A stretch of DNA of 49,743 bases from a virus: positions 1 to 49,743 of the IMG/VR virus record IMGVR_UViG_3300030430_000175; one strand, written 5' to 3'. How positions within the stretch are numbered: position 1 is the first letter of the stretch; each line of letters begins with the position of its first letter. The notes under the pieces were generated by a model. The model worked only from the letters and a program-made list of their open reading frames with translations. It did not search any database and was not told the origin of the DNA. Of the stretch, positions 17,636-27,406 are shown piece by piece. A program made the position numbers and the translations under genes.

Positions 17636-17657
17636 AAAGGGCACCGAAGCGCCCTTT
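17636..17657 (-). terminator. UUCG-capped hairpin after the 85-aa early gene
   Basis: Minus-strand RNA reads AAAGGGCGC-UUCG-GUGCCCUUU, a 9-bp stem closed by a UUCG tetraloop. One pair is G-U on this strand but would be a C-A mismatch on the other, which shows that the leftward transcript is the one selected. It follows the 85-residue gene by about 23 nt. Confidence 0.75.
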
Positions 17658-18051: not shown

Positions 18052-18071
18052 GGGGCCACCGAAGTGACCCC
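18052..18071 (-). terminator. UUCG-capped hairpin after the first early gene
   Basis: Minus-strand RNA reads GGGGUCAC-UUCG-GUGGCCCC followed by UUUGGAGUUUU: an 8-bp stem with a UUCG loop and a U-containing tail. The U-G pair exists only on this strand. It separates the 106-residue gene from the 30-residue peptide, so readthrough would set the level of the genes below. It shares the upstream bases AACTAC with the hairpin at 17636. Confidence 0.75.
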
Positions 18072-18402: not shown

Positions 18403-18430
18403 ACTGATCTCCTGATCTAGTTATTTAATT

Positions 18431-18447
18431 TTACTGCCGCTTCGTTG
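18431..18447 (-). promoter_or_regulatory. 5'-leader hairpin of the first early mRNA
   Basis: Minus-strand RNA contains GCCGC-CAACGAA-GCGGC, a 5-bp GC stem that would form at or next to the predicted 5' end of the transcript from the promoter at 18459-18489. A stem at the extreme 5' end often protects phage mRNA from decay. Confidence 0.45.
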
Positions 18448-18458
18448 GCGGCCCAAAC

Positions 18459-18489
18459 ATTATAACCCAGCCCTGCCGAAAAATGTCAA
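18459..18489 (-). promoter_or_regulatory. Promoter for the first early gene
   Basis: Minus strand: TTGACA (18484-18489) and a perfect TATAAT (18459-18464). The spacer is 19 bp, two more than ideal, which should weaken it. The predicted start lies about 50 bp before the ATG at 18402. Confidence 0.6.
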
Positions 18490-18521
18490 CCCAATCTGGC
18501 GCGTGATTTTTCCTGCGTGAA

Positions 18522-18534
18522 GAGCCAAAGGCTC
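18522..18534 (-). other. Short GC hairpin in the early leader
   Basis: GAGCC-aaa-GGCTC on the + strand (GAGCC-UUU-GGCUC in the leftward RNA), with flanking GCGCG/GCGTGA bases. It could pause or weakly terminate the long transcript coming from 19039, upstream of the local early promoter. Confidence 0.35.
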
Positions 18535-18712
18535 CGCGCGAAAACAGGCGAAGATTTAGAGGGCCTAAAAATCGACCAGGATTTTGGAGGTTTTTCGAGG
18601 GTTTTCGAGGCGAGGTTTGCAGAGTTGAAATAATCTTGACGGATTGCCTGGCGAGGCTTGTGAAAACTAAGTAACACTCTGAAATATTTAGAAGTTTTCT
18701 GTAGTAAAATAT

Positions 18713-18834
18713 AACTCTAGTGTTACTTTAGAGTACTCTTTAGACTGTAAACTACTCTGGAGTTGCTCTTTAGGAATACTTTAGAGAATTCTGGAGTGTA
18801 CACCTAGTAAACTTTGAAGTATTCTGGAGTATTA
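18713..18834. repeat. Array of degenerate 11-12 bp repeats
   Basis: Successive units resemble ATACTCTGGAGT: for example GTACTCTTTAGA, ACTCTGGAGT, TGCTCTTTAGGA, ATACTTTAGAGA, ATTCTGGAGTG, ACTTTGAAGT and ATTCTGGAGT. TCTGGAGT occurs exactly at 18756, 18790 and 18823, spaced 34 and 33 bp (three turns of DNA). The spacing places sites on one face of the helix, as in iteron or regulator arrays. Confidence 0.6.
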
Positions 18835-18927
18835 TTCAGGTGCGGGCAGGTGACCATACCCCTATACGTATATATATACTAAATCTCAAACATTTTACGA
18901 AACTTTAAAGTGTCAACTAGAGTTTGG

Positions 18928-18941
18928 CTATCTACCCCTAT
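18928..18941 (-). promoter_or_regulatory. Fifth operator-like 14-mer
   Basis: CTATCTACCCCTAT matches 13 of 14 bases of the copy at 13326. It lies about 100 bp downstream of the leftward promoter at 19046-19074, where a bound protein could block the early leader transcript. Confidence 0.6.
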
Positions 18942-18952
18942 TTAAAGGGATG

Positions 18953-19004
18953 ACTATAAAGTGTTTTGGCGGGGCTTAAAAGTACTTTGGCAGGGCTTTA
19001 TAGT
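18953..19004. repeat. Two 21-bp direct repeats between inverted ends
   Basis: Units at 18958-18979 and 18979-19000 share the core of AAAGTGTTTTGGCGGGGCTT (18 of 22 aligned bases match). The pair is bounded by an inverted repeat, ACTATAAAG (18953-18961) and CTTTATAGT (18996-19004). A 21-bp period is two helical turns, typical of iterons or paired regulator sites. Confidence 0.6.
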
Positions 19005-19045
19005 TATGTATATATATATATGCAACCCCGGTGGGTTACATAATT

Positions 19046-19074
19046 AGTATAGCTTCAGATTTAACATTTGTCAA
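19046..19074 (-). promoter_or_regulatory. Leftward promoter of the divergent pair
   Basis: Minus strand TTGACA (19069-19074), 17-bp spacer, TATACT (19046-19051): near-consensus sigma70. The predicted start is near 19039-19041, giving about 550 nt of transcript without a gene before the local promoter of the first early gene. Its -35 box lies inside the 18-bp inverted repeat shared with the rightward promoter. Confidence 0.8.
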
Positions 19075-19104
19075 GTTAAAAAGTAGTTGACAAATGATAA
19101 ATCT
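19057..19104. repeat. 18-bp inverted repeat joining the divergent promoters
   Basis: Left arm AGATTTAACATTTGTCAA (19057-19074) and right arm TTGACAAATGATAAATCT (19087-19104) pair at 17 of 18 positions around a 12-bp centre. Each arm supplies the -35 box of one promoter and most of its spacer, so a dimeric regulator bound here could switch both genome arms at once. Confidence 0.85.
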
Positions 19105-19115
19105 AACCCTATACT
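19087..19115 (+). promoter_or_regulatory. Rightward promoter of the divergent pair
   Basis: TTGACA (19087-19092), 17-bp spacer, TATACT (19110-19115): same boxes and spacing as its leftward partner. The first purine at a normal distance is A19123, the first base of the terminase small-subunit ATG. Confidence 0.85.
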
Positions 19116-19122
19116 GTCTTCT

Positions 19123-19506
19123 ATGAAAAAGGAATTAACAGAAAAACAAAAAAACTTTCTAGGCCATCTTATAGATGTAGGAGGTGATCCAAAGAAAGCA
19201 GCAGAGCTTGCAGGTTATTCTGGGAATCATTGGCAGGTTACCAAGTCACTTAAAAATGAAATAATAGACCTAGCGTCAAATATCCTAGCTCAATCTGCAC
19301 CACAAGCAGCTTTAAAACTTACTGAGGTTATGAACTCTGACCAGCCAGTTCCTCAAGCCAATATACGACTACAAGCAGCGCAAACAATATTAGATCGCAT
19401 TGGACTAGGAAAATCTGACAGGTTAGATGTAAATCATACAGTACAAGGTGGTGTTTTTATATTACCTGCAAAAGAAGAGGTTATAATTGAGCATTCCGAA
19501 ACGTAG
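19123..19506 (+). CDS. Terminase small subunit
   Basis: 127 residues from ATG 19123. An N-terminal helix-turn-helix (LTEKQKNFLGHLIDVGGDPK, AAELAGYSG) would recognise the packaging site. A central helical region follows (LASNILAQSAPQAALKLTEV) and the C-terminal tail is mainly beta. The gene precedes the large terminase, as usual. An upstream TTG at 19087 is in frame but lies in the promoter -35 box and has no ribosome site. No Shine-Dalgarno precedes ATG 19123 either, and the promoter places the RNA start on this ATG, so the message is probably leaderless. Confidence 0.85.
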   Translation: MKKELTEKQKNFLGHLIDVGGDPKKAAELAGYSGNHWQVTKSLKNEIIDLASNILAQSAPQAALKLTEVMNSDQPVPQANIRLQAAQTILDRIGLGKSDRLDVNHTVQGGVFILPAKEEVIIEHSET

Positions 19507-19723
19507 CAGTGTAGTACCTTTTGGATACACAATATCTAAAGATAATCCTAAAATGCTTGAAGAAGTTCCTGAACAACTTGAAGCATTAAAAGAAATATCT
19601 GTTTTAGTTAAAGATAATCTGTTAAGTTTACGTGAAGGATCAGCTTGGTTAGAGCATAAAACAGGTAGGCGATTGAGTCATCAGGGATTAAAGAAAATAA
19701 TAAATGAAAGATTGGGAAGTTAA
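19487..19723 (+). CDS. Small HTH-like protein between terminase genes (78 aa)
   Basis: Starts with TTG 19487 (GAGG 6 nt upstream), overlapping the end of the small terminase gene. After VVPFGYTISKDNPKMLEEVP, the product has a helix-turn-helix-like part (SLREGSAWLEHKTGRRLSHQ, GLKKIINERLG) of the recombinase/terminase type. In related marine phages a similar small gene lies directly before the large terminase, so it may be a second DNA-recognition component of packaging. That role is inferred from position. Confidence 0.75.
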   Translation: MSIPKRSSVVPFGYTISKDNPKMLEEVPEQLEALKEISVLVKDNLLSLREGSAWLEHKTGRRLSHQGLKKIINERLGS

Positions 19724-21389
19724 TCCAGATGACTATTTAAAAGATGAAGAAGGTAACTTTATCTTAAAAGTAGATGGGACTCCAAGAAAACGAGGGGGCC
19801 GAAAAAAAGGTAGTAAGTCTAGAGGTTATAATTATAGCCGAGCCACTCAAGCTAGAATGAAAGCAAATAGAGCGGTTAAAGAAAAAGAAAAACTTATTGC
19901 TAGGGCTGAAGCTAAACTTAAAAATCAAAAAAACTCATTAAAAACTTCAAAGTCTACTTTAGCAAAATTAGATAATAAAGAAATATCTAAAGAAGGTAAA
20001 GTTATTACAGAAGATAATATTGTAAAGCTTCCTAAAAAATTAAAAGAGGAAACTTTAGAGAATGTTATCTTTAGACCAAATGAGGGGCCGCAGACAGACT
20101 TCTTAGCAGCCCCAGAAACAGATGTGTTGTATGGTGGCGCAGCAGGGGGTGGTAAATCCTATGCTATGCTCGTAGATCCCCTGAGATTCGCTCATAGGGC
20201 TGCTCACAGGGCGTTAGTATTAAGACGCTCAATGCCTGAACTCAGGGAACTTATAGATAAGTCTAGGGAACTATATCCAAAGGCTTTTCCAGGGTGCAAG
20301 TTCAGAGAAGTAGAAAAAATATGGACATTCCCCTCTGGAGCTAAACTAGAGTTTGGATTCTTAGAAAGAGATGCAGATGTTTACCGCTATCAAGGGCAAG
20401 CATACTCATGGATAGGGTTTGATGAGATTACTCATTTATCAACAGAGTTTTCTTGGAATTATCTTTCATCTCGACTTCGTACTACAGACTCTGAGATTAC
20501 ACCTTACATGCGTTGCACAGCTAACCCTGGTGGTGCTGGTGCGACATGGGTAAAGAAGCGTTATGTGAACCCATCTGCGCCTAATGAAAGCTTTACAGGC
20601 GATGATGGCTTGACAAGACGTTTTATACCAGCCAGACTAGAGGATAACCCGTATCTTGCTAAAGATGGCAGATACGAGCAAATGCTAAAAGCTTTACCAG
20701 ATGTACAGCGTAAGCAGCTTCTAGAGGGTAATTGGGATATTACAGAGGGCGCAGCCTTTACAGAGTTTGATGTAATGGAGCATGTTATTGCACCTTTTGA
20801 GATACCTATCTCTTGGGAAAGAATAAAAGGCATTGACTATGGATATGCTTCTGAAAGTGCTTGTGTTTGGGGTGCTGTTGATCCCACTGATGGCACACTA
20901 ATAATATATAGAGAGTTATATAGAAAAGGATTAACGGGTGTTGATTTAGCTCAAATGATAACTAACATGGAGCTACAAGATCCTTTCTCAGTTGCTGGAG
21001 TGCTTGATACAGCAGCTTGGAATAGAACAGGCACCACAGGGCCTACAGTTGGAGAAACCCTTCAACGAGGAGGGCATAAACTGCGTAGAGCAGACAAAAA
21101 CAGAATACAGGGTAAAATTCAAATACATGAATACTTGAGAGTGCAGCCTAGTGGCAGACCAAAAATACAGATATTTAATAGCTGTCCCAACTTAATACGC
21201 GAACTTCAAAGTATTCCTTTAGACAAATCAAATCCTGAAGATGTTGATACACATGCGCCTGACCATGCTTATGATGCACTAAGATACTTAATAATGTCAA
21301 GACCTAAAGTAAATGATATATTTAGTCAATTTAGAAACATGAGAATGGAACAAGCTTACACACCCGTTGATGCGGAGTTTGGATATTAA
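19704..21389 (+). CDS. terL: Terminase large subunit
   Basis: Packaging motor. ATPase: Walker A at 144-152 (GGAAGGGKS), Walker B with Asp240-Glu241 (WIGFDE), coupling region with TANPGG. RNase H-like nuclease: Asp378 (GIDYGY), Asp435 (VLDTAAW) and Asp520/Asp524 (PDHAYDALRY). The first 120 residues are an unusual extension: acidic start, then a basic AT-hook-like patch (KRGGRKKGSKSRG, 29-41) and a lysine-rich coiled segment. This might add DNA contact or bind the small subunits. The ATG overlaps the preceding gene by 20 nt. Confidence 0.96.
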   Translation: MKDWEVNPDDYLKDEEGNFILKVDGTPRKRGGRKKGSKSRGYNYSRATQARMKANRAVKEKEKLIARAEAKLKNQKNSLKTSKSTLAKLDNKEISKEGKVITEDNIVKLPKKLKEETLENVIFRPNEGPQTDFLAAPETDVLYGGAAGGGKSYAMLVDPLRFAHRAAHRALVLRRSMPELRELIDKSRELYPKAFPGCKFREVEKIWTFPSGAKLEFGFLERDADVYRYQGQAYSWIGFDEITHLSTEFSWNYLSSRLRTTDSEITPYMRCTANPGGAGATWVKKRYVNPSAPNESFTGDDGLTRRFIPARLEDNPYLAKDGRYEQMLKALPDVQRKQLLEGNWDITEGAAFTEFDVMEHVIAPFEIPISWERIKGIDYGYASESACVWGAVDPTDGTLIIYRELYRKGLTGVDLAQMITNMELQDPFSVAGVLDTAAWNRTGTTGPTVGETLQRGGHKLRRADKNRIQGKIQIHEYLRVQPSGRPKIQIFNSCPNLIRELQSIPLDKSNPEDVDTHAPDHAYDALRYLIMSRPKVNDIFSQFRNMRMEQAYTPVDAEFGY

Positions 21390-26507: not shown

Positions 26508-26717
26508 ATGCCTCAAATAGGTTCTGATGCGAATCCCATGATGTTTCGCAAAACATTTGTTAGTAAAGAAAGCCGTTTCCGCAAAGGAATGAATCTTTCT
26601 CAGTACAAAGATAACTACGAGCGTATCTTTAGAAAAAACCCTGACAGTTCAGAGTATGACTCAGAGTTTGAGGCAGCTAGAAACAAAAGTAAAACATTTT
26701 CAATGGAACAAGATTAG
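26508..26717 (+). CDS. Small basic protein after the capsid gene (69 aa)
   Basis: ATG 26508 has GGAG upstream, just beyond the terminator. The product is charged and polar (FRKTFVSKESRFRKGMNLSQ; SEYDSEFEAARNKSK), without membrane segments. No family recognised. The place suggests a minor head or head-completion protein, an inference from order only. Confidence 0.7.
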   Translation: MPQIGSDANPMMFRKTFVSKESRFRKGMNLSQYKDNYERIFRKNPDSSEYDSEFEAARNKSKTFSMEQD

Positions 26718-27406
26718 TGGCGTATTTACAAAGTAATATCCCACATTTTAAATGTTGGGTCAGAAAAGAATATACGCACAATCACACAGCTTATCATGGA
26801 GAATATATACACGCACTAGCTATTGCTGTTACGTGTATTCCTGATAGGTCATTAAGTTTTCAGGTAGTTTTTACTGGCGCTGAAACTTATGATAACGATG
26901 ATCCAAATGTACATGGAGGAGCTATGTGGGCTAGAATGCCTATAACGGCTCTTGTCGGTGATACTATCTTAGACAAATGGCCTGATGCAATGCCTCCACA
27001 TTTAGCACAGCCCTGGGATTGTAGTTCTAGAAATCATGCAGTTTATGTAATGGATAGAACAAGTTCAAGCCCTTGGATTTGTAAAATTAATGGAGAGTTT
27101 TATACAGGTAAATATATGTTTACGGTGGACTACACTGATAGTGCAATATCTGATGATCCTGCACAACATAAACAAAATCATGTAATAGAACTTATAGATG
27201 CAGGAGATTGGACAGGAAACATTATTGCATTACCTAATAATAGAGTAAGGGTAACTAATCCAGCCTTGTGGGCCTATGGTGAGGGTGCCCCTGATTTCCG
27301 TCCTAGTCAGTGGATTCATAGTGCAGAGTGTGATGTAAGTTATATGAACCCTAATATTACTTTTAATAATTTGTATATGGAGACAGAAAATGACAAAGAT
27401 GAGTAG
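26717..27406 (+). CDS. Conserved structural-region protein (229 aa)
   Basis: Starts with GTG 26717 overlapping the previous stop (TAGTG). The product is beta-rich with conserved-looking aromatic blocks: YLQSNIPHFKCWVRKEYTHN, YIHALAIAVTCIPDRSLSFQ, MWARMPI, and KYMFTVDYTD. The C terminus is acidic. I recall this family from marine podovirus and cyanophage structural regions, always next to capsid or adaptor genes and without an assigned role. Confidence 0.8.
   Translation: MAYLQSNIPHFKCWVRKEYTHNHTAYHGEYIHALAIAVTCIPDRSLSFQVVFTGAETYDNDDPNVHGGAMWARMPITALVGDTILDKWPDAMPPHLAQPWDCSSRNHAVYVMDRTSSSPWICKINGEFYTGKYMFTVDYTDSAISDDPAQHKQNHVIELIDAGDWTGNIIALPNNRVRVTNPALWAYGEGAPDFRPSQWIHSAECDVSYMNPNITFNNLYMETENDKDE

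Follow-up and report, generated by a model that had tools for sequence, protein, structure and literature searches.

The locus and its genome

The window analysed here, a stretch of 49,743 nt from an IMG/VR virus record, belongs to an HTVC103P-like marine phage with a GC content of about 40%. Its genes form two arms that point away from each other. The left arm on the - strand runs from 18402 down to 1821 and encodes ribonucleotide reductase, a family A DNA polymerase, a primase-helicase and nucleases. The right arm on the + strand extends from 19123 to the end of the window, with further genes at 61-1621, and encodes terminase, portal, capsid, tail and lysis proteins. Between the arms lies a pair of divergent promoters, at which the GC skew changes sign, and almost all genes are located downstream of one or the other, as the initial annotation had stated. 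The convergent ends of the arms meet at 1613-1821, with a stem at 1727-1746 between or within short ORFs. A ferredoxin-like auxiliary gene (PHROG 3704) is situated inside the structural arm at 26717-27406. The features of the promoter site are compiled in Table 1.

The large terminase (TerL) is 65.6% identical to that of Pelagibacter phage HTVC103P, the DNA polymerase shows 47% identity to the HTVC103P polymerase over 595 aa, and the major head protein was recognized by a family match. A nucleotide search against public phages returned no near relative. Strict HMO-2011-type phages possess a DNA polymerase with a DnaJ central domain containing two CXXCXGXG motifs (PMC9038755). These motifs are absent from the polymerase of the window, so strict membership was rejected and the sequence places the phage in the HTVC103P-related groups III/IV, which combine HMO-2011-type TerL and capsid genes, as found here for the packaging genes, with an HTVC103P-related DNA polymerase (PMC8528129).

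Table 1. Features of the divergent promoter site and the flanking transcripts in the window
Feature	Position	Strand	Details
First left gene, 106 aa	18082-18402	-	Preceded by AGGAG; homologues in the L008 and L004 genomes
Predicted untranslated leader of the left transcript, ~0.64 kb	18403-19039	-	First-ORF distance also surveyed in relatives
Second conserved leader block, GTTGACACT...TAAAATGT...TAGTATATATA...CACCTGCCC	18836-18922	-	Seen in distant relatives
Predicted 5'-terminal hairpin, GUAACCC-ACCG-GGGUUGC	19022-19039	-	Predicted +1 at 19039; fold started at 19040
Left promoter	19046-19074	-	TTGACA 19074-19069, 17-bp spacer, TATACT 19051-19046; pair conserved in relatives
18-bp inverted repeat	19057-19104		Arms 19057-19074 / 19087-19104; 17/18 pairs, 12-bp gap
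A/T-rich stretch between the -35 boxes, 12 bp	19075-19086		Length 7-104 bp in relatives
Right promoter	19087-19115	+	TTGACA 19087-19092, 17-bp spacer, TATACT 19110-19115; pair conserved in relatives
Small terminase subunit gene (TerS), 127 aa	19123-19506	+	AUG 7 nt past the -10 box; no ribosome-binding site
Large terminase subunit gene (TerL)	19704-21389	+	Anchor for finding relatives

A divergent promoter pair conserved upstream of the small terminase gene

The two promoters have identical boxes, stand back to back and leave 12 bp between their -35 boxes, in agreement with the coordinates of the initial annotation. The pattern TTGACA-N16-18-TATAMT has exactly two matches in the 49.7 kb, both at this site, against an expectation of 0.06; as a predicted sigma-70-type divergent pair, with back-to-back -35 and -10 boxes and spacers of 16-18 bp, the arrangement is beyond chance. 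The predicted starts of the two transcripts are about 83 bp apart and point apart, and the A/T-rich stretch between the -35 boxes is a possible shared UP-like region. Because the search of the annotated proteins (a subset of the small ORFs was scanned) revealed no phage RNA polymerase, the host polymerase is the likely reader of both promoters; a one-domain search for single-subunit RNA polymerases matched no control genome and cannot show absence.

Using TerL as the anchor, a scan for relatives yielded 80 loci. The divergent pair precedes the small terminase gene in 47 distinct TerL relatives, each promoter having a TTGACA box, a 17-bp spacer and either TATAAT or TATACT as the -10 box; single departures from this pattern are rare. 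The combination of divergent pair and TerS was present in at least 138 distinct records, 47 of them non-redundant. When viral contigs were scanned twice for the promoter pattern alone, with carrier counts that are lower bounds, the same arrangement came up again, and when all loci were pooled, at least 115 among the 232 distinct pairs listed preceded a small terminase-type gene. The cultured SAR11 phages HTVC103P, HTVC033P and HTVC115P possess the pair as well, and in some of them one box is weaker or the spacer measures 16 bp. Among 12 phage records checked, 11 had only 2-5 exact promoter matches in the whole record, two of which formed the pair; in the twelfth (G005) the pair was not seen as exact matches.

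The initial annotation had known no phage with exactly this layout. It is unusual in the 12-bp gap and the degree of arm identity only, whereas the divergent pair itself is widespread in the phage group. Promoters were not mentioned in the open-licence literature on HMO-2011-type and RCA/HTVC103P phages (PMC8528129 among these papers). The -10 types of the two promoters agree in 37 of the 47 sequences of the unbiased TerL set, for which clade structure may be the cause. Covariation of the -10 types in the pattern-scanned set was dropped as evidence, since the scan patterns forced matching boxes. A divergent pair with a gap of about 31 bp occurs in other phages too (L215, L249, L304, L311, L218 and similar loci), where the predicted leaderless gene encodes a small, by eye possibly Myb/SANT-like, DNA-binding protein (MKKYKKKPWSEQERK...).

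A predicted leaderless message for the small terminase subunit

In the non-redundant set the AUG of TerS is located 6-8 nt past the -10 box in 72% and at most 10 nt past it in 85% of the sequences. With the first purine at nt 7-9 past the -10 box as the start, 29 of 48 cases have a predicted 5' UTR of 0 nt and 41 have one no longer than 3 nt; in a few relatives, the -10 box and the AUG are 16-37 nt apart. In the window, no ribosome-binding site precedes TerS, unlike most other genes, but TerS is not unique in that respect because the large terminase gene lacks one too. With the AUG at or within a few nt of the predicted start and no ribosome-binding site, we infer that the TerS mRNA is leaderless in the window and in most relatives. 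This predicted leaderless terminase message and the predicted 5'-terminal hairpin of the left transcript are two conserved features that had been missed initially. Among open-licence papers, no title or abstract evidently relevant to leaderless terminase messages was found.

A predicted 5'-terminal hairpin and long leader on the left transcript

The predicted 5' end of the left transcript would fold into a hairpin in which the very first base is paired. Such a hairpin can form at the 5' end in 59% of the representative relatives compared with 18% of shuffles; the sequences differ, yet they still pair at the same position through compensatory changes, and a minority clade is without it. Pairs were counted for each sequence separately, as the MAFFT alignment misplaced the 3' arms of variants with other loop sizes. 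Among the variants, G-U pairs outweigh A-C mismatches (13:6 vs 84:122, p = 0.03). Pairing in place despite varied sequences, together with the surplus of G-U over A-C, points to a hairpin that acts as RNA more than to a DNA operator. Position reveals the hairpin excess more clearly than folding energy does (z = -1.66 in the window). A search against Rfam gave no match, and RNAalifold detected no convincing overall fold for the leader within the window's own family.

Downstream of the hairpin, a long untranslated leader is predicted. In the relatives, the first sizeable ORF begins about 450-860 nt, mostly 520-790 nt, past the left -10 box (L034 and L156 were set aside from this survey because the opposite strand had been read). 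The second conserved block within the leader was rejected as a sigma-70 promoter, as no more than about 13-14 bp separate its TTGACA from its TAAAAT; possibly it is an origin or a regulator site. The first left gene had no match in Pfam or PHROG, and its homologues in several relatives share a common PATxKQ-like start. GC-rich, weakly terminator-like hairpins follow the first and second left genes at 18052-18071 and 17636-17657 and may partition the early region.

The inverted repeat is strong in the window and lost in most relatives

The 18-bp inverted repeat, which takes in the two -35 boxes together with 12 bp of either spacer, was verified. Extended to 29 bp (19046-19074 / 19087-19115), the arms are 86% complementary. 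No other 18-bp arms with at least 17 pairs and a loop of 3-40 nt exist elsewhere in the window, and none occurred in 20 Markov-resampled windows. However, two near-consensus promoters placed back to back account by themselves for 12 of the 29 matching positions, and the excess symmetry therefore resides in the 12 spacer bases adjoining each -35 box.

Between the spacer arms, identity amounts to 13 of 17 positions in the window. Among the relatives it ranges from 2 to 14 of 17, with gaps between the -35 boxes of 7-104 bp, and strong symmetry is limited to a few close relatives. Arms within a genome are slightly more alike than arms swapped between genomes (7.98 vs 7.11 of 17, non-redundant set, p = 3.5e-4). 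An excess of this kind also appears in other phages with divergent pairs (6.9 vs 5.2), and base composition therefore probably accounts for some of it. In the family with the 12-bp gap, 2 of 6 distinct sequences have parallel changes in both arms, L156 at one spacer position and L132/L008 at four (permutation p = 0.064, n = 6); at the same 12 positions, the sister family with an 8-bp gap exhibits no covariation (p = 0.39-0.43). The parallel changes and the slight within-genome likeness hint at a common binding protein or at copying from arm to arm.

These results bear on the proposal that the palindrome couples the promoters and that the site thereby controls both genome arms. A single divergent pair does head both arms and is kept in relatives. 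The coupling by the palindrome was not supported, as most relatives retain the promoters while the symmetry of the arms is lost and a weak excess remains, the outcome that the initial annotation had named as refuting its idea; a regulator restricted to one lineage may still exist.

Interpretation

We regard the site, with considerable though not full confidence, as the master promoter from which an HTVC103P-like phage transcribes in both directions. Both strong near-consensus promoters would be read by the host's sigma-70 RNA polymerase. From the left one, an early transcript of the replication arm would arise, its 5' end protected by the hairpin and followed by about 0.6 kb of untranslated leader. 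Transcription from the right one would start at or 1-3 nt from the TerS AUG, such that the packaging and structural arm would begin as a leaderless mRNA. The palindrome would be a by-product of two promoters of the same type facing apart, whose spacers resembled each other recently in this sublineage, perhaps through homogenisation by arm-to-arm copying, and not a conserved working part. That both promoters are near-consensus leaves the delay of the late genes unexplained, so this account lacks a layer of control, which could come from termination, gene copy number, a regulator or leaderless translation. One elaboration, which we think rather improbable, is that late genes are timed by translation throughout the phage group: both arms would be transcribed together from the twin host promoters, the leaderless terminase mRNA would be translated efficiently only once the ribosomes of the infected cell change, and the 5' hairpin with the long leader would stabilise and regulate the early transcript.

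The initial annotation had proposed that one symmetric regulator, or competition between polymerases, could set the balance between the arms. In the regulator version, the arms are operators for a phage protein that binds both -35/spacer regions and switches from early to late transcription. The high arm identity in the window, the both-arm changes in the 12-bp-gap family and the small within-genome excess across all relatives speak for it. Nevertheless, we consider it unlikely: arms are asymmetric in most relatives with the same promoters, where a symmetric operator switch would predict conserved or covarying arms, covariation is absent from the 8-bp-gap family and the test in the 12-bp-gap family is small, and the changing gap excludes one fixed dimer spanning it. 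No regulator was seen among the left-arm proteins scanned, and the LexA-like gp30 of HTVC103P was rejected as a candidate for lack of a convincing homologue in the window. Competition, in which two polymerases do not fit together at the site, draws on the distance between the predicted starts, as 83 bp falls short of the summed upstream extent of two polymerases; occlusion may thus occur in this phage itself. Yet relatives keep the pair at gaps of 30-104 bp, at which occlusion should weaken or vanish, so that mutual exclusion is not the conserved function, and as an explanation of the site we judge it very unlikely. With gap and identity varying this widely, neither a fixed symmetric regulator nor steric competition fits as the shared mechanism.

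The excess symmetry itself might instead have been copied between the arms by template switching at the quasi-palindrome, a mutational process without regulatory role that is compatible with the master promoter reading. The parallel changes in close relatives are in line with this, as is the tendency of arms to be more alike when the gap is short (rho = -0.40, p = 0.005, 47 sequences), but grouping by gap size abolishes this gap effect (rho = -0.14, p = 0.58) and the 8-bp-gap relatives are not homogenised, which leaves template switching a tentative idea that is more probably wrong than right. A site serving chiefly as a pac (packaging) element or replication origin next to the terminase genes, with incidental promoter-like boxes, would agree with the adjoining TerS, the switch in GC skew and the second conserved leader block. 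We give this reading hardly any credence, since exact -35 and -10 hexamers and the 17-bp spacing are kept on both strands while the rest varies, which is the signature of promoters, and the AUG lies at a distance consistent with the start of a transcript.

The hosts of HTVC103P-type pelagiphages are SAR11 bacteria, which rank among the most common in the ocean. The master promoter reading predicts both transcript starts from a single conserved site for the whole phage group, including the cultured HTVC103P, HTVC115P and HTVC033P. If true, a conserved leaderless packaging gene heading the late arm would be unusual, and its combination with near-consensus promoters raises the question of how late genes become delayed.

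Comparison with known systems

The window shares with HTVC103P-type pelagiphages the gene layout and the divergent promoters before TerS; the isolates differ in gaps of about 18-19 bp and, in some, a TTGTCA box or a 16-bp spacer. Lambda cI provides the classic example of a leaderless mRNA in a phage, its PRM transcript starting at the AUG beside the divergent PR. The similarity to the site described here is that one promoter of a divergent pair starts its transcript at the AUG, as predicted for TerS. Unlike cI, which is a repressor gene, the predicted leaderless gene serves packaging and opens the late arm, and no operator array was seen. Tight divergent promoters are also known from Pc/Pr of plasmid pLS20, where they act as a switch; the overlapping promoters, unequal strength and DNA looping by RcoLS20 of that system (PMC4207663) were not found here.

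The nearest working analogue is phage phi29 (A2c, A2b/A3; p4, p6). There, too, early and late transcription by the host polymerase leave one short intergenic region in opposite directions, and the promoters have inverted-repeat sites between or over them (PMC3100819). The phi29 late promoter has a poor -35 box and needs p4 (PMC3100819), whereas here both -35 boxes are perfect, the right one being TTGACA, which argues against a p4-type switch at a weak late promoter, and the symmetric arms are not conserved.
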